The notes below the pieces were generated by a model, which worked only from the letters and a program-made list of their open reading frames with translations, was not told where the DNA came from and ran no database searches. 45,207 nucleotides of DNA from Patescibacteria group bacterium (GTDB lineage: Bacteria; Patescibacteriota; Microgenomatia; UBA12405), in contig WARW01000023.1 in assembly GCA_013387215.1 (NCBI GenBank), forward strand, positions 1-45,207, in the 5' to 3' direction. This document shows, in pieces, positions 27,197 to 37,934 of this stretch (its first letter is position 1; every line of letters starts with the position of its first letter). The translations under genes were made by a program, and so were the position numbers.

Positions 27197-28522
27197 ATGC
27201 CAATCACTTCTATAAAATCTTTTATTCAAAAGTCTAAAAACTTTTTAATACATCAACCTAAAGGATTATTTTATAATCTTAAATACGGCTATCCAACTAA
27301 AAAATTAACTTTAATTGGTATTACTGGCACAGATGGCAAAACTACAACCTGTACTCTCATTTATGAAATCTTAAAAGAAGCTGGTTATAAAGTTGGAATG
27401 ATTAACACTATTGGCGCAAGAATAGGCGATAAAGAATATAATACCGGTCTACACACCACCAGCCCAGATCCAGCCAAACTTCAAGATTTATTTTCTCAGA
27501 TGGTCAAGGCAGGTATGACTCATGTGGTTTGTGAAGTCACTTCCCATGCTTTAGATCAGCACCGATTCTTTGGATGTAATTTTAAGATTTCTGCTATCAC
27601 CAACATTTCTCATGAACACCTTGATTACCATAAAACAATGGAAAACTATATTGCTTCAAAAGTAAAACTTTTCGAACAATCCCAACAGGCTGTTCTAAAC
27701 ATAGACGATGAATCATATAAACAAATTAAAGCTTCGATAAATATACCAATTACCACTTATGGAGTTAAAAAAGCTTGCGATTATCAAGCCAAAGAAATAA
27801 AACTTAATGACAAGAGTTTAAAATTTAAAGTCAACAAGTTATCTTTAGAAACTGACAGTAATTATTCTTATCAAGTCTATAATATTTTGACTGCTCTTGC
27901 GGTAACTGAAAAACTCGGAATTGACCCAAAAATAGTTGAAAAAGTCATTAAAAATTTTCCTGCAACAAAAGGTCGTCGAGAAGAATTTTCTAATGATTTA
28001 AAAATAAAAACTATTATTGATTTTGCACACACACCAGCCGCCCTCAAAAGTACTTTGTCTTCGTTAAAAGAAAATACAAAAGGAAATTTAATTGTTATTT
28101 TTGGCGCAACCGGTGGACGAGATGTCAGTAAAAGACCTTTGATGGGGAAAATTGTTTCTGAAATTGCCAATATTGCCATTATAACTTCTGATGACACTCG
28201 CAATGAAAAAATTGAAGATATTAACAAAGATATTATTAGCGGTATAGATCAAAAAAACGCCAGGTTTCTTGATCCAGAAAAACTTGAAACCAATTCTCAG
28301 ATTCTAAATGCGAGCAAAGAATCGAAAAACAATTTTACTTATTTTAATATTCCAAATCGCCAAGATGCATTTAATTTGGCAATTAAATTAGCCCAACCTG
28401 GAGACACTGTAATTGCCTGCGGCAAAGGCCACGAAACTACTATTTTACTTGGTAACACCGAATATCCGTGGTCCGAGTCTGAAGCCTATAGAACTGCCTT
28501 TAGATTTAAAAAAATAAAATAA
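27197..28522 (+). CDS. murE: MurE-family Mur ligase, short N-terminal domain
   Basis: IGITGTDGKTTTCTLIYEIL, TTSPDPAKLQDLFSQMVKAGMTHVVCEVTSHALDQHRFFGC, NISHEHLDYHKTMENY, VIACGKGHE. Confidence 0.88.
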   Translation: MPITSIKSFIQKSKNFLIHQPKGLFYNLKYGYPTKKLTLIGITGTDGKTTTCTLIYEILKEAGYKVGMINTIGARIGDKEYNTGLHTTSPDPAKLQDLFSQMVKAGMTHVVCEVTSHALDQHRFFGCNFKISAITNISHEHLDYHKTMENYIASKVKLFEQSQQAVLNIDDESYKQIKASINIPITTYGVKKACDYQAKEIKLNDKSLKFKVNKLSLETDSNYSYQVYNILTALAVTEKLGIDPKIVEKVIKNFPATKGRREEFSNDLKIKTIIDFAHTPAALKSTLSSLKENTKGNLIVIFGATGGRDVSKRPLMGKIVSEIANIAIITSDDTRNEKIEDINKDIISGIDQKNARFLDPEKLETNSQILNASKESKNNFTYFNIPNRQDAFNLAIKLAQPGDTVIACGKGHETTILLGNTEYPWSESEAYRTAFRFKKIK

Positions 28523-28523
28523 C

Positions 28524-29120
28524 ATGCCACAATTCAATATAGCCACTTCTCAAAATATTGAAGAAAACTACGAAAAGGGATTCTTGCCACAAAGAAACGA
28601 CAAAAATTTGTTTTATCAGGATTCAAGTTGCCGTTCCGACTTATCAATATTTCAACTGAACTCGGAAAATCGCCGTATAATCCGAAAAACAGAAAATTTT
28701 TCTTTCGAAAAAATATTTTTAAACGATTTTATATATGATATTGAACTTCAAAAAAAACTATATAGTTGGGTGAAAACCTTAGAATGGGATTTTCCAGTAA
28801 GCTCAATTAAAAATATTTTTACTAATCATATTTTTAACTATGTCTATGTTTGGAAAAATGAAGAATCAAAAATAATTGCCTATGCAGTATGTTATTTTTC
28901 CCCAACCATAAGCCACATTGCTTACGTTTTTTATGATCCAGAATATAGCCACGGCAATTTACCAATCCGTTTAGTGCTGCAGGTTATTGAAGATAGTCAA
29001 AAACTAGGTCTTAAATATTGTTATTTAGGCCGTTTTTCTAAAGAAACTGGTTATTATAAAAGAAATATGCCCGGATTCCAGTTTTTTGATAACAACCAAT
29101 GGGTAGAATATAATAGTTAA
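28524..29120 (+). CDS. Arginyl/leucyl-tRNA-protein transferase (Ate/Bpt)-like GNAT-fold protein
   Basis: FYQDSSCRSDLSIFQLNSENRRIIRKTENF resembles the Ate N-region; IAYVFYDPEYSHGNLPIRLVLQVIEDSQKLGLKYCYLGRFSKETGYYKRNMPGFQFFDNNQW resembles the Ate/Bpt C-region. Confidence 0.65.
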   Translation: MPQFNIATSQNIEENYEKGFLPQRNDKNLFYQDSSCRSDLSIFQLNSENRRIIRKTENFSFEKIFLNDFIYDIELQKKLYSWVKTLEWDFPVSSIKNIFTNHIFNYVYVWKNEESKIIAYAVCYFSPTISHIAYVFYDPEYSHGNLPIRLVLQVIEDSQKLGLKYCYLGRFSKETGYYKRNMPGFQFFDNNQWVEYNS

Positions 29121-29122
29121 TA

Positions 29123-30505
29123 ATGAATATTCATATAATCGGCATAGCTGGTGCTATGACTGCTTCACTAGCCAAAGAATTAAAGCGCCTCGGCCATCAA
29201 GTGACAGGATCTGATCAGGAAAAAATCTATCCACCAGTAAGTGATATTTTGAAAAATGCCGATATTAAAATTAATCGAAATCCAATTAGTAAAAATATTG
29301 ACTTAGTTATTGTTGGTTCATCTTTTAATTCATTCGAAAACACTAGACAAGAATTTGAAACAGTAAAGAGACTTGATCTTCCATATATTTCTGCAACCGA
29401 ATATATTGCCAAATATTTAGGTAAAAATAATTCAATTTTAGTTGCTGGTGCATATGGCAAAACTACTATTACTAGCCTTCTTTCTTGGATATTAATTAAT
29501 GCTGATTTTGATCCCAGTTATATGATCGGAGGAGACTTGGTAAACAATACCGACTCAACCAGAATCAGTAATTCAAACTGGTCTGTTATCGAAGCCGATG
29601 AATCAATTCATGGACTCGACCAAAAAGCTAAATTTTTATATTATCCTGTAAAATATTTACTCTTAACTTCAGCCGATTGGGAACATAAAGACAGCTACAA
29701 ATCAGAAGTTGAAAATTTATTAGCTTTTCAAAACTTAATTGAAAATATTCCAGAGGATGGGGTCTTAGTAATCAACTCTCGCGGATATTCTTGCAATAAT
29801 TTATCAAAATTTACCAAAGCAAAAGTCATCACTTACAATAACCAAGATTCTGATTATTATATTTCAAACGTATCCATTGAACAAAATCAGACTTTAATAA
29901 CCATCAACACTCCAACTTCTCCTATTTCTGTTAACACAGAATTATTAGGACAATTTAATTTTGAAAACATTTTAGCGGCGGTGGCTATGGCTGATTATCT
30001 TGGAATTGACAGACAAATTATTCAAGATTCTATTTCCAAATTTAAAGGTGTTAAACGCCGTATACAGTTGATTGAAAAAGTTGAAGACATTATATTTTTT
30101 GATGATTTTGCTCAATCAGCACCCAGAATAAAATCTACACTTGATGCCATAAAACTTCATTATCCTAATAATAATATAAAAGTATTTTTTCAGCCTCACG
30201 CTTCTTTTTTACAACATAAACAAGGTCTAAATAATTTAAATGATGCCTTTGCAAATGCCACAGAAGTGGTTTTAGGAAAGATTAGTTTTAGCCAAAAGAT
30301 AGATAAAAACAATCGAGTAACAGCATCAGATTTCTGTAGTGAAGTTGGTCAAAAGTTAATCTATTTACCTATCAATGAAGATATAGTTAATCACTACAAT
30401 CAAACCCTTAAACCTAAAGATATTTTAATATATATGAGTTCTGGTGGAATCGAAGGTTCAGAAATTATAAATTCAATAATTAATAATTTAAAAACAAATG
30501 TCTAG
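29123..30505 (+). CDS. MurC/Mpl-family Mur ligase
   Basis: MNIHIIGIAGAMTASLAKELKRLGHQVTGSDQEKIYPPVSDIL, VAGAYGKTTITSLLSWIL, VIEADES, KGVKRRIQLI, FQPHASFLQHKQGL. YPPVS and a modified QPH motif resemble Mpl. Confidence 0.82.
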   Translation: MNIHIIGIAGAMTASLAKELKRLGHQVTGSDQEKIYPPVSDILKNADIKINRNPISKNIDLVIVGSSFNSFENTRQEFETVKRLDLPYISATEYIAKYLGKNNSILVAGAYGKTTITSLLSWILINADFDPSYMIGGDLVNNTDSTRISNSNWSVIEADESIHGLDQKAKFLYYPVKYLLLTSADWEHKDSYKSEVENLLAFQNLIENIPEDGVLVINSRGYSCNNLSKFTKAKVITYNNQDSDYYISNVSIEQNQTLITINTPTSPISVNTELLGQFNFENILAAVAMADYLGIDRQIIQDSISKFKGVKRRIQLIEKVEDIIFFDDFAQSAPRIKSTLDAIKLHYPNNNIKVFFQPHASFLQHKQGLNNLNDAFANATEVVLGKISFSQKIDKNNRVTASDFCSEVGQKLIYLPINEDIVNHYNQTLKPKDILIYMSSGGIEGSEIINSIINNLKTNV

Positions 30506-31826
30506 ATACGTCATAACCGGTGGTAAACCCTTAAAAGGTGAAGTTTCAATTCGAGGAGCTAAAAATGCCAGTTATAAACAAATTATTGCCTCACTTTTGA
30601 GCGATAAAACAACTCAATTAACCAATGTTCCTCAAATATCTGATGTAAAAATAACTACTAGTATAGCTAAAAGTTTAGGTGCTGAAATTATTTATTGCGG
30701 TGAACATTGTATTGAAATTTGTACTCCTAAAATCACAAACTCTACTGTTCCTCGGGGTACTGGCGAAAAATCACGAACTTCTTTCATGTTTGCTGCCCCA
30801 TTATTAGCTAGAACTGGCACCGCTATTGTTCCAATACCAGGTGGAGATAAATTAGGCGCCAGACCTCTTGATAGACTTTTTGATTGTTTCGCTCAAATGA
30901 ATATTACTACCGAAGAAACAGAAAATTCTCTGATTTTTAAAACTACAGGCATAAAACCTACCAATTATTGTTTTCCGAAACCATCTCACACTGTTACCGA
31001 GGTTGTAATTATGACGGCTGCTCTAGCCAATGGTGAAACAATCCTAGACAATGCCGCCCTTGAACCGGAAATTGACGATCTTATCGAAATGTTAAATGAT
31101 ATGGGCGCCAAAATACAAAGAGATTTAAACGACCCAAAAAGAATTATTATCCAAGGCGTTCCTTGGTTAAATGGAACAAAACACCAAGTAATTTGTGATC
31201 GAAACGAAGCTGTTACTTTTGCTTGTGCTGCCTTAGCCACCAAAGGCTCGATTAGTATTTTAAGAATTGATCCAAAAATTATCAAAAGCTTTCTAGATAC
31301 TATTGAAAAAATGGGTGCTAAAGTGGAAACCGGCCGTGATGAAGTAACCGTAAGTTGGGTCAAACCTCTCAAAGCTATCGATATTGAAACCGAACCTGAA
31401 CCAGGATTTATGACCGATTGGCAGGCACTTTTTACAATCGTATTATCACAAGCCATAGGTTGCAGCTCCATAATTGAACGTGTATATCCAAGTCGTTTTC
31501 AACACATTAATAATCTTAAAATAATGGGAGCTAAGGTAAACTTTTTCAATCCAGAAGTTAGTGATCCCGCATCTTATTATCAATTTAATATTGAAAGTGA
31601 TAAGCCAGAATATTTTCATGGAGTAAAAATCTATGGACCTGCCAAACTCCAACCAGCCAAGTTCATTATTAACGATCTTCGGGCTGGTGCTTCAACTACA
31701 TTAGCTGCTCTAACTGCTGATGGAGAATCAATAATTGATGGAGTTGAATTTATCGAAAGGGGATATGAACGTTTAGCCGACCGTCTCTGCTCATTAGGTG
31801 CTAATATAGAATATATTAAAACATAA
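30498..31826 (+). CDS. murA: UDP-N-acetylglucosamine 1-carboxyvinyltransferase
   Basis: YVITGGKPLKGEVSIRGAKNASYKQIIASLL, PGGDKLGARPLDRLFD, EPGFMTDWQALFTIVLSQAIGCSSIIERVYPSRF, DLRAGASTTLAALTADG. Confidence 0.95.
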   Translation: MSRYVITGGKPLKGEVSIRGAKNASYKQIIASLLSDKTTQLTNVPQISDVKITTSIAKSLGAEIIYCGEHCIEICTPKITNSTVPRGTGEKSRTSFMFAAPLLARTGTAIVPIPGGDKLGARPLDRLFDCFAQMNITTEETENSLIFKTTGIKPTNYCFPKPSHTVTEVVIMTAALANGETILDNAALEPEIDDLIEMLNDMGAKIQRDLNDPKRIIIQGVPWLNGTKHQVICDRNEAVTFACAALATKGSISILRIDPKIIKSFLDTIEKMGAKVETGRDEVTVSWVKPLKAIDIETEPEPGFMTDWQALFTIVLSQAIGCSSIIERVYPSRFQHINNLKIMGAKVNFFNPEVSDPASYYQFNIESDKPEYFHGVKIYGPAKLQPAKFIINDLRAGASTTLAALTADGESIIDGVEFIERGYERLADRLCSLGANIEYIKT

Positions 31827-31832
31827 CAAACA

Positions 31833-32867
31833 ATGATTCACTTGTACTTAGGATTGCTCCTTTTTTCCTTCTTAACCACCAGTATCTTAGTGGTGCCTTT
31901 CATTAATTTACTTTATAAACTAAAGTTTCAAAGACAAAAACAGAAAACTTTGGATTTCCAGAATAAAAGAACTCCTATTTTCGATAAATTTCATAGCCAA
32001 AAGTCTGGCACTCCGGTTGGTGGTGGACTATTAATTATAGCCGCAGTTATAGTTCTTTTTGCCATACTTTTCCCAATTTTAAAATTTTCAAAAATATTTA
32101 TTTCTTCTAATTATCAAATCGACAAAGAATTATTAGTCATATTCTTTACCTTTATTAGCTTCGGACTTCTTGGTCTATATGATGATATAAATAAGTTCTT
32201 TGGATTTCAAAAAACCGGATTTTTCGGACTAAAAATGATCCATAAACTTTTTTTGCAAATATTTTTAGCTACAGCCATTTCTATGTTTATTTATTTTGGG
32301 CTTGGAATTAACTTTATTTATGTTCCATTTTTAGGTGCTATCAGCCTTGGTTTGTTTTACATCCCAGTCTCAATTCTTATCATTACCGGGTTTTCCAACT
32401 TCTTCAACATTACAGACGGTCTAGATGGTCTTTCTTGCGGTCTTTTAATGATCGCTTTATTTGCTTTTTGGTTCCTTTCTAGCAATTCGCTTGATACTCC
32501 AATTTCTGTTTTCCTCGCTTTATGGCTTGGCGCTCTTGTTGCCTTTTTATATTTCAATGTTTTTCCAGCAAGAATTTGGCTTGGAGATGTTGGATCTTTG
32601 TCTTTCGGAGCAACAATTGCAGTTATTGCCTTACTTCTAGGTAAAATAGTACCACTTCTCATTGTTGGTTCACCGTTTATTATTGAAGGACTAACCAGTG
32701 CAATTCAAATGTTGAGTAAAAAATACCTAGGAAGAAAAATATTTCCAGCCGCTCCAATTCATTTAACACTTCAACAAATTGGCTGGGAAGAACCAAAAAT
32801 TGTGACTCGGGCCTGGTTAGCTGGTATAATATTAGCTATATTTGGACTATGGTTGGGACTAAACTAA
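31833..32867 (+). CDS. mraY: Phospho-N-acetylmuramoyl-pentapeptide transferase
   Basis: GTPVGGGLLIIAAV, GLYDDINKFFGFQKTGFFGLKM, NFFNITDGLDGLSCGL, FPARIWLGDVGSLSFGATIAVIALLLGK, AAPIHLTLQQIGWEEPKIVTRAWL. Confidence 0.93.
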   Translation: MIHLYLGLLLFSFLTTSILVVPFINLLYKLKFQRQKQKTLDFQNKRTPIFDKFHSQKSGTPVGGGLLIIAAVIVLFAILFPILKFSKIFISSNYQIDKELLVIFFTFISFGLLGLYDDINKFFGFQKTGFFGLKMIHKLFLQIFLATAISMFIYFGLGINFIYVPFLGAISLGLFYIPVSILIITGFSNFFNITDGLDGLSCGLLMIALFAFWFLSSNSLDTPISVFLALWLGALVAFLYFNVFPARIWLGDVGSLSFGATIAVIALLLGKIVPLLIVGSPFIIEGLTSAIQMLSKKYLGRKIFPAAPIHLTLQQIGWEEPKIVTRAWLAGIILAIFGLWLGLN

Positions 32868-33526
32868 TACAATTTAAAGAAGTAATTAATCACTATCTTG
32901 GTTTACCTTATTGGCGCAACAAGCTAAAAGATGGCAAGGTAATTCAAGAAGGTATTTTGGGCGGAAAAGGTAATTGTCGTCAAATTGCCACAGAAACAAT
33001 TAAACTAGCTCAGAATCAAAACGTCGACATTACTAAATTAACCAACCAAGAGTTCTACAATTTTCAAAAAAAGAATCATATCGGCGTTGACTGTTCGGGG
33101 CTTGCATACAATCTTTTGGACGAATATTCCCAAATTTTAACGGAAAAAAGTATCTATGAAAAAGTTGTAGGAATAGATTCAAAACTTGGAGCCAGAAGAA
33201 TTTCTGCAAATATATTAACTTCTCCCATAAATTCAATACCTGTCGATAGCTATGACGATATTAAAACTGGGGACTTAATTAGAATGGACAATGGAAAACA
33301 TGTTGTGCTTGTTGTTGAAAAAAACGACAATATCATTACTTATGTCCATAGTAGTGAAAAAACAAAAATTCGAGGTGTTCATTATGGCACTATAGAAATA
33401 ACAAATCCTAAAAAAACCCTTGATTACCAAAAATGGTCAGACATAACCCTAAAAGATATTAACTACAATAAACTAATTTTCCCTAAAAAAGGGGACGGTA
33501 TCTACAGGCTAAAATGCCTTGCTTGA
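32849..33526 (+). CDS. NlpC/P60-like cysteine hydrolase
   Basis: NHIGVDCSGLAYNLLDEY (DCSG), KTGDLIRMDNGKHVVLVVEKNDNIITYVHSS (GDL...H); no obvious signal peptide. Confidence 0.65.
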   Translation: MVGTKLIQFKEVINHYLGLPYWRNKLKDGKVIQEGILGGKGNCRQIATETIKLAQNQNVDITKLTNQEFYNFQKKNHIGVDCSGLAYNLLDEYSQILTEKSIYEKVVGIDSKLGARRISANILTSPINSIPVDSYDDIKTGDLIRMDNGKHVVLVVEKNDNIITYVHSSEKTKIRGVHYGTIEITNPKKTLDYQKWSDITLKDINYNKLIFPKKGDGIYRLKCLA

Positions 33527-33738: not shown

Positions 33739-34560
33739 ATGGCACCGACTCCTTTAATTAAATTAGAAAATATCTATCTTAAAAGAGAAGACTTAAACAC
33801 AACTGGTTCGGCTAAAGACAGAGCTATGTCTCTTCAAATTGACAGTTTAATAAAAAAGGGGATTAATAAAGCTGTTTTATCAAGTACTGGCAACGCCGCT
33901 CTCTCCGCTCTATATTTTTGTCAAAAAGCCAATATTGAATTAACTCTTTTTGTCTCTCCAAAAATTAATCCTCAAAAATTAGAAGAAATAAAAAAACTTA
34001 CATCAAATATTCAATTTTCCTTAAAACCAATTAGCGATGCCATAAAGTTTTCTAAAAAAGAATCTGCTTATCTTTTGAGACAATCCACCGACCCAATCGC
34101 TTTAATTGGTTACCAATCTATTGCTAAAGAATTGCAAGAACAACTACCTCAAATAACCAGTATTTTTATTCCAGTAGGTAGTGGCACCACCTTACTTGGT
34201 ATATCAGAAGCTTTAAGTCCAAATGTAAAGATATTTGCAGTTCAATCTTCGAACAACTGTCCGATTGCCAAACTTTTCGATACAAATTTTACTCCAGAAG
34301 AAGATTCTTTAACCGATGCTATTTCCGTAAAAGTTTTGCCATTAAAAAATCAAATTATTAATGCCATTAAAAACAGTAATGGTTCCGCTTTTGTTATCCA
34401 AAATAATGAAATTGAGAGTGCACAAAAAGAACTATCCAAACACAATGTAATTACATCACCAGAAGGTGCTCTAGCTTTAGCGGGATTACACAAAGCGGTA
34501 CTCAACAATTACGATATTGGATCCTACCCAGTTGTTCTTTTAACCGGAGTCCGAAGATGA
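33739..34560 (+). CDS. PLP-dependent enzyme, fold type II (threonine synthase/cysteine synthase-like)
   Basis: LKREDLNTTGSAKDRAM (PLP Lys), VLSSTGNAALSALYFC, IFIPVGSGTTLLGISEAL, TSPEGALALAGL. Confidence 0.85.
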   Translation: MAPTPLIKLENIYLKREDLNTTGSAKDRAMSLQIDSLIKKGINKAVLSSTGNAALSALYFCQKANIELTLFVSPKINPQKLEEIKKLTSNIQFSLKPISDAIKFSKKESAYLLRQSTDPIALIGYQSIAKELQEQLPQITSIFIPVGSGTTLLGISEALSPNVKIFAVQSSNNCPIAKLFDTNFTPEEDSLTDAISVKVLPLKNQIINAIKNSNGSAFVIQNNEIESAQKELSKHNVITSPEGALALAGLHKAVLNNYDIGSYPVVLLTGVRR

Positions 34561-35738
34561 TTAATATCGATCTTTTTAATCAGCTAAATCAAAGCAATTA
34601 TACTTTTTACTTCTTAGTTGTAGACGAATTTTTGGATATTGAAATGTATCCTCAATTAAATAAATTTCATTTAATTTATGCCTACAAAAATGTTAAACAT
34701 CCATTGTTTAAAGCCAACAATGTTCCATATTTTTGTCTTGAAGAACAAGGTGAAATTTTATCTGAAAAAAATACTGGAAAATTATTATCTCACCCAAAAG
34801 TAATTGAATACATAAATTCTACTAAATTAGAAACAGTTCCAGCAATTATTCCTTTTAAACCATCCTCTAAAATTGATTTTATATGTCGACAAAACAATTG
34901 GATCGAAATCAGCAATCCGGGTCCTCTTAATAGATATTTAGAAGATAAAATAAAGTTTCCTGAAATTTGCGAAAAGTTTAATATACCAATTATTCCTTAT
35001 AAAATAGACACTTTTACAAAAGAAAATTTTGAGAAATACCAAAATCTTTATGACCCGCATTTAGTTATACAAACTCATTTTGGCTGGGCTGGCAACAGTA
35101 CCTTTAATGCCACTGCTTGGGTAGATATAGAAAATTTAATCCCTCAAGGAGCTATTGTTAAATACTCGCCTTATTTAAAAGGATATTCACTTTTAAACAA
35201 TTGTTGTCTAACAAAATATGGTTTAGTTCAAAGCCCTCCAGCACTTCAATATACAGGAGTCCCTCCATTTACCAATAACCCTTTTACAACCGTTGGTCGC
35301 CAATGGCCTTGTCTTGCACCCCTCCCAATTCAACAAAAAATAAGATCTATTACTGAAGACTTTGCCAAAATTTTGAAGAAACTTGAGTATAAAGGTTTTT
35401 TTGGATTAGATTTTTTTATTAGCGATCGTGAAATATATTTATTAGAATGTAATCCACGTCTTACTGCTTCTTTTGCTTTTTACACTAAAATTGAAGTAAA
35501 AGAAAATATCACTCCGCTTTTTTTTATGCACATAGCAGAATTTTTAAATTTAAATTATAAAATTGATATACAAGAAGAACAGCAGCGATTTTATAATGAA
35601 AATATAATCGGTTCCGAATTAACTCAAAAAAATTTAGATAATAACACCATAAGAAAAATTAATGATTTTATTGTTTTTTCCGAATCTATCGAACCCATAA
35701 TTATCAAGCCAAAAATAGTTAATATGTTTTCATTTTAA
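34557..35738 (+). CDS. ATP-grasp family ligase
   Basis: LEDKIKFPEICEKFNIPIIPYKI, LVIQTHFGWAGNSTF, YKGFFGLDFFISDREIYLLECNPRLTASF. Confidence 0.82.
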   Translation: MINIDLFNQLNQSNYTFYFLVVDEFLDIEMYPQLNKFHLIYAYKNVKHPLFKANNVPYFCLEEQGEILSEKNTGKLLSHPKVIEYINSTKLETVPAIIPFKPSSKIDFICRQNNWIEISNPGPLNRYLEDKIKFPEICEKFNIPIIPYKIDTFTKENFEKYQNLYDPHLVIQTHFGWAGNSTFNATAWVDIENLIPQGAIVKYSPYLKGYSLLNNCCLTKYGLVQSPPALQYTGVPPFTNNPFTTVGRQWPCLAPLPIQQKIRSITEDFAKILKKLEYKGFFGLDFFISDREIYLLECNPRLTASFAFYTKIEVKENITPLFFMHIAEFLNLNYKIDIQEEQQRFYNENIIGSELTQKNLDNNTIRKINDFIVFSESIEPIIIKPKIVNMFSF

Positions 35739-35740
35739 CT

Positions 35741-36919
35741 GTGAAGAAAAAATCAACCTTGATTTTCTATATTCTCAGTTTAATCGCTATCGGTTTGGTT
35801 TTTATTTCTATCTCTTCCTTAACCGAAGCTAACTCCACCATGGGTGACAAGTATTACTTTCTAAAAAAACAGTCTATTTGGCTTGTGATTGGATTTATTA
35901 GTTTCTATATAACTTCAAAAATTAAACTCGATACAATCAAACGTTTTTCACTACCTCTTTATATTGGAACATTAATTATTTTGGCTGTTGTTTTAATTCC
36001 TAGCATCGGGAATCAAGCACTTGGAGCTAGACGTTGGATAAGTATTGGAGGACTTGGCGGAATTCAGCCATCTGAAATTCTCAAACTAACTTCAATTATT
36101 TATTTTTCGTTTTTATTTTCCATCAAAGAAAAAAGGACTATAAAAAATTTAATAATATTTTTAGGTATTCCATTTTTACTGATCATTCTTGAACCAAACC
36201 TTAGTACTGCTATGCTGGTCTCAGCTATCGTTATTTCTATTTATTATTTATCGGGTGGAGAAATAATGCCCTTATTTACTCTCTGTTCAGTGGTAATACT
36301 ATTAAGCGTAATTTTAGTGGTTTTTTCTCCTTACAGATCAGCTCGTTTAAAAACTCTTTTAAACCCGGAACAAGGCCAAAACACTTCTTCGTATCATAGT
36401 AATCAAATAATTTTAGCCTTATCTTCCGGAGGATTATTTGGAAAAGGCTTTGCTAATTCAGATCAGAAATATCGTTTTTTACCTAAAATTTCTACCGATT
36501 CTATATTGGCAGTTATTGGAGAAGAAACAGGTTTTGTTGGTGTTACAGGAATAATATTATTGTATGTTTATTTAATTGCTTATTTAATTAAATTAAGTCA
36601 ATCCCTTAACGATAGTTTTCAATCTCTTCTGGTTGCCAGTGTCGCTTGCTGGATCGCATTCCAAAGTCTAATTAATATTTCTGCAATTGTTGCTATCATT
36701 CCTTTAACTGGAGTACCTCTGCCTTTTATTTCATATGGAGGCTCTTCTTTATTAACTTTACTAACAGCCCTCGGTTTAGTCCGTAATATCGAAAAACAAA
36801 ACAATTTATTGATATACTCTAAGAGTAATGAAAAACCCCTTACTAAAGAAAATTATCATTATCACCGGCACTCACTTAACACCGGCAGTCGAACTCATCA
36901 ATCAACTGAAAGCAGATAA
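35741..36919 (+). CDS. ftsW: SEDS protein, FtsW-like
   Basis: LGARRWISIGGLGGIQPSEILKLTSIIYFSF, EPNLSTAMLVSA, ALSSGGLFGKGFANSDQKYRFLPK, IPLTGVPLPFISYGGSSLLTLLTALGLV. GTG start. Confidence 0.92.
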   Translation: MKKKSTLIFYILSLIAIGLVFISISSLTEANSTMGDKYYFLKKQSIWLVIGFISFYITSKIKLDTIKRFSLPLYIGTLIILAVVLIPSIGNQALGARRWISIGGLGGIQPSEILKLTSIIYFSFLFSIKEKRTIKNLIIFLGIPFLLIILEPNLSTAMLVSAIVISIYYLSGGEIMPLFTLCSVVILLSVILVVFSPYRSARLKTLLNPEQGQNTSSYHSNQIILALSSGGLFGKGFANSDQKYRFLPKISTDSILAVIGEETGFVGVTGIILLYVYLIAYLIKLSQSLNDSFQSLLVASVACWIAFQSLINISAIVAIIPLTGVPLPFISYGGSSLLTLLTALGLVRNIEKQNNLLIYSKSNEKPLTKENYHYHRHSLNTGSRTHQSTESR

Positions 36920-37934
36920 AAATTCTGATTGGGATATTCACTACATTGGCCGACGTTTCAACTCAAGTGTTGATGATACTCCTTCTATCGAATCTCAAAT
37001 AATTCCAAAGCTTGATGTAAAATTTTATCCGATTGACTGTGGCAAATACGATCGTAAATGGTTGCCAAACACTATCAAAGGCATTCCTCAAACTATTAAG
37101 GGTTTATTTAATGCTTTTAATTTAGTCAGAAAAATTAAACCAAATATTGTCGTATCTTTTGGTGGGTATGTTTCTGTTCCTGTCGTAATAAGCAGTTGGT
37201 TTACAAAAACTCCATCAATTACTCACGAACAGACTTTAACTAATAGTTTAACCACAAAGATCAACAGTTATTTCGTCTCTAAAGTTGCCCTTTCATTTAA
37301 TAATCCTGATCAAATAAAATTATTGCCGTCAAAAAAAGTAGTCATTACTGGAAATCTATTAAGAGCTGATATTTACAAGTCAGAATCAAAACACTTTAAA
37401 AAACTTATTGATCTAAAAAAACATCCTTCAATCATTTATATAACAGCAGGCAATCAAGGTTCACATATTATTAACACCACTATTAAATCCGTTTTGAAAG
37501 ATTTAAAAGATTTTGTAGTTATTCACCAAACTGGACAAGCTGAATTTCCTGAATATAAATCTCTATCTGAAAAATACAAAAATTATTATCCGTTCGAATA
37601 CATAAACTTATCCGATATTGGTTGGATTTTTAATAATTCAAAAATTATTATTAGTCGTTCTGGTGCAAACACTTCTCAAGAAATCGTCAGTTTAAACAAA
37701 AATTCAATTCTTATTCCTCTCCCAAAAAGCCAACAAAACGAACAAGAATTAAACGCCTTTTGGGTTAAAAAACAACTTCCTCAAAACACTATTGTTATTT
37801 CCCAAGAAACATTAACACCAGAATTGTTACTTGAAAACATTAATAAATTCAACAAAATTTCTAGTCCATCTATAAAAAATATAAATAATTCTACAAATTT
37901 AAATTTATTAAAGCTCATAAATGAAACTAATTAA
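36828..37934 (+). CDS. murG: UDP-GlcNAc:undecaprenyl-PP-MurNAc-pentapeptide GlcNAc transferase
   Basis: IIITGTHLTPAVELINQL, KIKPNIVVSFGGYVSVPVVISSWFTKTPSITHEQTLTNSLTTKI, VVITGNLLRADI, ISRSGANTSQEIV. Confidence 0.9.
   Translation: MKNPLLKKIIIITGTHLTPAVELINQLKADKNSDWDIHYIGRRFNSSVDDTPSIESQIIPKLDVKFYPIDCGKYDRKWLPNTIKGIPQTIKGLFNAFNLVRKIKPNIVVSFGGYVSVPVVISSWFTKTPSITHEQTLTNSLTTKINSYFVSKVALSFNNPDQIKLLPSKKVVITGNLLRADIYKSESKHFKKLIDLKKHPSIIYITAGNQGSHIINTTIKSVLKDLKDFVVIHQTGQAEFPEYKSLSEKYKNYYPFEYINLSDIGWIFNNSKIIISRSGANTSQEIVSLNKNSILIPLPKSQQNEQELNAFWVKKQLPQNTIVISQETLTPELLLENINKFNKISSPSIKNINNSTNLNLLKLINETN

Follow-up and report, generated by a model that had tools for sequence, protein, structure and literature searches.

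Why should a relative of the N-end-rule aminoacyl-tRNA transferases be encoded between two Mur ligases? This question is raised by one open reading frame in the 45,207-nt stretch of DNA analysed here (the window), whose host is a Candidatus Shapirobacteria genome (Microgenomatia, CPR; 98.6% complete) with a single copy of the gene. A sequence-only reading had recognized an Ate/Bpt-like protein at 28524-29120, set with 1-2 nt spacing between murE and a murC/mpl gene, and had proposed a role in stem-peptide or cross-bridge synthesis. The reading frame is exact, and the gaps indeed amount to 1 and 2 nt, with murE ending at 28522 and the next Mur ligase gene starting at 29123 (Table 1).

The 198-aa product matches the Pfam ATE_C domain (PF04377; E=4e-8, 34.3 bits, over the cut-off of 25), as do all 33 aligned orthologues at E<=0.01. 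NCBIfam arginyltransferase models also hit it (3e-8 to 7e-4), with a best score of 33.5 bits that does not reach the equivalog cut-off of 170. The first survey yielded 34 relatives besides the window's own gene, 30-71% identical to its product where aligned. Invariant residues of the 33-orthologue alignment include Y167, G169, Y178, and K179, in a YLG...YK region aligning to ATE_C; no ATE_N (PF04376-type) domain was matched in these 33 members, and no Cys is conserved that would correspond to the N-terminal Cys cluster typical of Ate/Bpt. When the AlphaFold model derived from this alignment (mean pLDDT 94.7) was compared with the PDB by Foldseek, human and yeast ATE1 ranked first (human ATE1, E 1.7e-9, TM 0.71 by query length), followed by MprF, A-PGS/L-PGS, the tRNA-dependent peptide synthase Sba18, and FemX, the last more weakly than ATE1. 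The closest structural neighbours of the predicted model are therefore aminoacyl-tRNA transferases and not other GNATs, in line with the initial assignment. Pfam and NCBIfam scans gave no match to the Fem sequence family. The family profile found no match among PDB sequences at 0.01 and single-sequence phmmer reached ATE1 only at E=0.07, so the relation to ATE1 rests on Pfam and the predicted fold. Together, these data support membership of the Ate family with a predicted aminoacyl-tRNA-transferase fold.

Table 1. Cell-wall gene cluster of the window (positions are those of the 45,207-nt stretch).
Feature	Position	Strand	Description
murE	27197..28522	+	441 aa; TIGR01085 367 bits, cut-off 257
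Ate/Bpt-like aminoacyl-tRNA transferase (predicted)	28524..29120	+	198 aa; PF04377 4e-8; AF2 pLDDT 94.7; Foldseek top match ATE1
MurC*/Mpl-like ligase, proposed dipeptide:UDP-MurNAc ligase	29123..30505	+	460 aa; below murC and mpl cut-offs; best PDB match 3hn7; own clade
murA	30498..31826	+	TIGR01072 404.8 bits
mraY	31833..32867	+	PF00953 9e-28; TIGR00445 163.5 bits, below cut-off 192
NlpC/P60-like protein	32849..33526	+	225 aa, probably cytoplasmic; PF00877 1.6e-4, just under cut-off
PALP-family PLP enzyme, threonine-synthase-like	33739..34560	+	PF00291 9e-47; PRK08329 family
ATP-grasp ligase	34557..35738	+	PF02655 3e-7; AF2 pLDDT 94.6
ftsW	35741..36919	+	named from sequence and position; order conserved
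murG	36828..37934	+	named from sequence and position; order conserved

The placement of the Ate-like gene (ATE) in peptidoglycan-precursor gene sets, initially seen in the window alone, is fixed across the neighbourhoods of its relatives. murE, ATE, and the gene of a MurC-like ligase are consecutive in 29 of the 29 neighbourhoods read, within a wider order PBP-murE-ATE-murC-murA-mraY-NlpC-PALP-ATPgrasp-ftsW-murG from which murA or NlpC is absent in some genomes. The genes of this module recur in the distant families f19, f25, and f21-g114, and ATE is linked to cell-wall genes in seven families or more. In f89 and f108, which belong to other classes, the module occupies a separate operon away from the division cluster, typically ATPgrasp-NlpC-mraY-ATE-murC-PALP, in which no murE was found. 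The Ate-like proteins of f121, f138, f146, and f163 do not adjoin mur genes, which counts against the cell-wall reading developed below; the linkage to proteolysis that would have told against the sequence-only reading was not seen either, no proteolysis gene lying beside the copies outside mur clusters (ten flanking proteins scanned).

Which ligase, then, is missing from these genomes? The gene had been noticed where murF sits in canonical clusters, but the idea of a MurF replacement is ruled out, as murF-type ligases are present, usually near ddl; murF lies outside the window cluster in the window's own genome (G000:C11) and shares a cluster with ATE in G040 and other order-level relatives. 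The absent ligase is MurD. Among the 329 genomes of the class, with MurD presence defined at E<=1e-40, the Ate-like gene occurs in 36, MurD in 238, and both in none (Fisher p ~2e-23, without correction for the phylogeny of these related genomes). MurD likewise exceeded the cut-off in none of 22 further carriers from other classes, which brings the overall figure to 0 of 58, and in none of the carriers in a set of 42 relatives; cross-hits of the MurD model in carriers were no better than 6e-31. The same exclusion holds at close range. Within family f21 the Ate-like gene is confined to genus g114 (G143 and G303), which lacks MurD, while the other genera have MurD, and in the window's own order MurD is present, and the Ate-like gene absent, in family f4 (G041). 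Consistently, Mur_ligase_C proteins in the window's genome number just three, namely MurE, the MurC-like ligase, and MurF. A missing MurD is not diagnostic by itself, since 55 of the 293 genomes without the Ate-like gene also show no MurD at the threshold, and independent losses among these related, mostly metagenome-assembled genomes are few, probably three or more.

The ligase encoded downstream, referred to as MurC*, departs from the sequence-only reading, which was right about murE on the left and had taken the right-hand neighbour for murC/mpl. It is not an ordinary MurC, scoring 262.9 bits against the TIGR01082 (murC) equivalog cut-off of 335.1 and 184.8 against 388.7 for TIGR01081 (mpl). 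In the tree, the 50 carrier ligases form one clade (support 99/99) from which E. coli MurC and Mpl and the nine MurC taken from MurD-positive genomes stand apart. The f21-g114 ligase falls inside this clade and five other f21 genomes keep an ordinary MurC; therefore, MurC was apparently exchanged along with the gain of ATE and the loss of MurD. By sequence (phmmer), the best PDB match of MurC* is 3hn7, which we take to be Mpl of Psychrobacter arcticus. The structure and function of this Mpl have been reported, and Tyr346, His348, His376, Arg377, and Arg380 of HiMurC are presumed to form the binding site for the incoming amino acid (PMC3060825). At these five sites the MurC* of the window has F, Q, H, A, and no Arg, unlike the MurC pocket. 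Nearly all carriers read have F, I, or L at the Tyr346 position, so that DDYAHHP mostly becomes DD(F/I/L)A(Q/H)S; the Tyr of the DDY motif persists in two Shapirobacterial MurC*. Shapirobacterial MurC* have also lost the Arg377/380 motif and carry one extra residue, positioned like the insertion of Mpl. Judged from these residues, MurC* seems to have given up recognition of the free L-Ala carboxylate; retention of Arg380 in f89, f108, f146, and f163, and of the Tyr in those two proteins, counts against this.

Several gene fusions connect the module. In the one-contig genome G455, a single 688-aa ORF (L182:8450-10513, minus strand) joins an Ate-like part (residues 5-217) to a MurC-like part (227-688). 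MurC* is fused to NlpC/P60 in G367 (L184:7388-9472, minus strand), and the ATP-grasp protein to NlpC/P60 in G540 (L192:11718-13790, minus strand). An operon of G065 (L215:6167-10803) reads NlpC-MurD-PALP-ATPgrasp, with neither Ate nor MurC* seen beside it, and its MurD occupies the position held elsewhere by this pair. NlpC, PALP, and ATP-grasp are hence compatible with MurD, and it is the pair of Ate and MurC* that follows the loss of MurD.

The remaining products of the cluster were also inspected. The DNPR motif of E. coli-type MurE reads DDTR in Shapirobacterial MurE and EDPR in the f2 and f3 relatives; residue 3 of the stem may be unusual, and the conserved Arg of this motif hints at a DAP-like residue. 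Cys82 and His151 are conserved in the NlpC/P60-like protein. The PALP enzyme, for which no PDB match was obtained at 1e-15, carries the SSTGN motif of threonine synthases, not the SSGN of serine racemase, and resembles the former more than a typical racemase. The ATP-grasp model folds like PurK, biotin carboxylase, PurT, and an ATP-grasp peptide ligase (8ynd). No Ddl C-terminal domain was detected at E<=1e-10 in the window's own genome, and most relatives have one; PALP or ATP-grasp as a Ddl substitute was rejected for most carriers, which have a Ddl. The same genome encodes, at L066:12127-13140, a FemX-like protein (58.8 bits) near murF, with an aminotransferase-like gene between them, as a candidate cross-bridge enzyme.

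How might these parts fit together? We favour, at somewhat less than even confidence, a reading in which the Ate-like protein and MurC* are peptidoglycan-precursor enzymes that take the place of MurD via a dipeptide route, for which we infer donor, acceptor, and product. The stem peptide on MurNAc has no free alpha-amine, and an Ate-type enzyme is therefore limited to the residue-3 side chain or, prior to attachment, to amino acids or peptides in free form. Bpt, of the same family, attaches Leu to N-terminal Asp/Glu (PMC4052509), which makes an acidic amino acid a natural acceptor for the Ate-like protein. This enzyme would draw on an aminoacyl-tRNA, most probably one charged with L-Ala or some other small residue, and acylate the alpha-amine of free D-Glu or an acidic analogue, releasing a dipeptide of residues 1 and 2, perhaps L-Ala-D-Glu. 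MurC* would ligate the dipeptide to UDP-MurNAc, as Mpl does with recycled murein peptides, bypassing MurD, and MurE and then MurF would act as usual. The cytoplasmic NlpC/P60 protein may provide the same dipeptide by trimming recycled peptides, from which YkfC of Bacillus yields such a product, and PALP and ATP-grasp may serve to provide residue 2 or to alter it. The broader proposition, that many CPR lineages lack the MurD step because an aminoacyl-tRNA-dependent transferase forms the first main-chain bond of the stem peptide away from the nucleotide and the product is then loaded whole on UDP-MurNAc, is put forward a shade more tentatively. Computation establishes the family and fold, the linkage, the MurD exclusion, the MurC* clade with its altered pocket, and the fusions; the last three are counted in favour of the dipeptide route, along with the complement of three Mur ligases, the stand-alone operon, the G065 operon, and the acceptor of Bpt. 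Two observations weigh on the other side as regards residue 2, namely the threonine-synthase likeness of PALP and, for the source of D-Glu, MurI, which exceeds its cut-off in 0 of 36 carriers and in 94 of the 293 other genomes of the class.

The main rival is a cross-bridge enzyme resembling FemX/MurM, which would use aminoacyl-tRNA to acylate the side-chain amine of residue 3 once MurE has acted, with another protein of the module performing the MurD step. The contact of the gene with murE in 29 of 29 neighbourhoods, the presence of FemX and MprF among the fold matches, and the use of UDP-MurNAc-pentapeptide as substrate by FemX (PMC4052509) all speak for such an activity. It is nonetheless weaker, and in our view unlikely, because it leaves the MurD exclusion, the altered MurC* pocket, and the Ate-MurC* fusion unexplained and because the window's genome encodes a FemX-like protein elsewhere, near murF. 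The stand-alone operons without murE and the Arg kept in the DNPR-type motif of MurE, with its hint at a DAP-like residue 3, point in the same direction. Of the two roles originally envisaged, main-chain stem-peptide synthesis now looks more likely than cross-bridge formation.

We regard as rather unlikely a second alternative, which assigns the MurD reaction to MurC* itself, as a residue-2 ligase, or to the ATP-grasp protein, with the Ate-like enzyme aminoacylating some other substrate of the pathway, such as a peptide from recycling or a residue 2 of unusual kind. Peptide-bond formation is known among ATP-grasp enzymes, as the match to peptide ligase 8ynd recalls, and ATP-grasp and PALP sit between mraY and ftsW, the slot of murD in E. 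coli. However, the ATP-grasp gene, present in five of six carriers tested, was not found in the carrier G303, and it occurs in 6 of 74 MurD-positive genomes; in G065 it belongs to the same operon as murD and so is no substitute there. These co-occurrences weaken ATP-grasp as a MurD substitute, and the parts that track MurD absence are the Ate-like protein and MurC*. It is improbable, moreover, that carriers hide a MurD too diverged for the model, with the anticorrelation reflecting ancestry. Carriers are partly related and a diverged MurD does exist in G065 (163 bits, under the cut-off), but that protein was still detected, the carriers' cross-hits stayed at the level given above, the window's genome has three Mur ligases only, and the contrasts within f21 and within the window's order run across close kin. 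Most improbable is an ordinary N-end-rule leucyl/arginyl transferase (Bpt/Ate) placed in a dcw operon by chance, which agrees with the sequence family and fold but not with scores far below the arginyltransferase equivalog cut-offs, the missing PF04376-type N-terminal match, the absence of proteolysis neighbours among the flanking proteins scanned, and a cell-wall linkage that spans seven or more families and has arisen anew in a stand-alone operon and in a fusion with a Mur ligase.

To our knowledge, peptidoglycan-making bacteria are regarded as sharing an invariant quartet of ligases, MurC, D, E, and F, and the MurD step is thought nearly universal. CPR genomes are usually described with essentially complete peptidoglycan pathways (e.g., PMC7143001), and our literature search found no paper reporting MurD replacement by an Ate-like transferase and nothing relevant on MurD in CPR. 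If the dipeptide route is true, a tRNA-dependent transferase in the place of MurD would alter the sequence of assembly steps and couple wall synthesis directly to tRNA charging; it would also give the N-end-rule transferase family a new role and account for a gap in the annotation of a large group of uncultured bacteria.

Comparison with known systems places the proposed pair between several of them. With Bpt/Ate1 (PF04377) the Ate-like protein shares the C-terminal family, the fold, the YLG...YK motif, and the predicted use of aminoacyl-tRNA and of an alpha-amine acceptor, but it is shorter (198 aa), has no recognisable ATE_N, and is tied to Mur enzymes instead of proteolysis. Like FemX, FemA, FemB, and MurM, it is predicted to be a GNAT-fold, aminoacyl-tRNA-dependent enzyme of peptidoglycan-precursor synthesis; it belongs, however, to another family, with a single short PF04377 domain, and tracks the loss of a main-chain ligase, whereas Fem enzymes add side-chain branches. 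The bond proposed for it, between residues 1 and 2, is that made by MurD (UDP-MurNAc-L-Ala:D-Glu ligase), an ATP-dependent Mur ligase acting on a UDP-linked substrate, whereas the Ate-like enzyme would depend on tRNA and act before attachment. The MurD2/MurL route of Xanthomonas also handles residue 2 in a non-standard way, still with a Mur ligase of the MurD type. As to MurC*, its closest PDB match, Mpl (3hn7), has in common with it DDFA and the pocket-loop insertion, and Mpl accepts L-Ala-D-Glu weakly (PMC3060825). Yet Mpl is a recycling enzyme that prefers DAP tripeptides, whereas MurC*, which lacks EPRSNT, would be biosynthetic.
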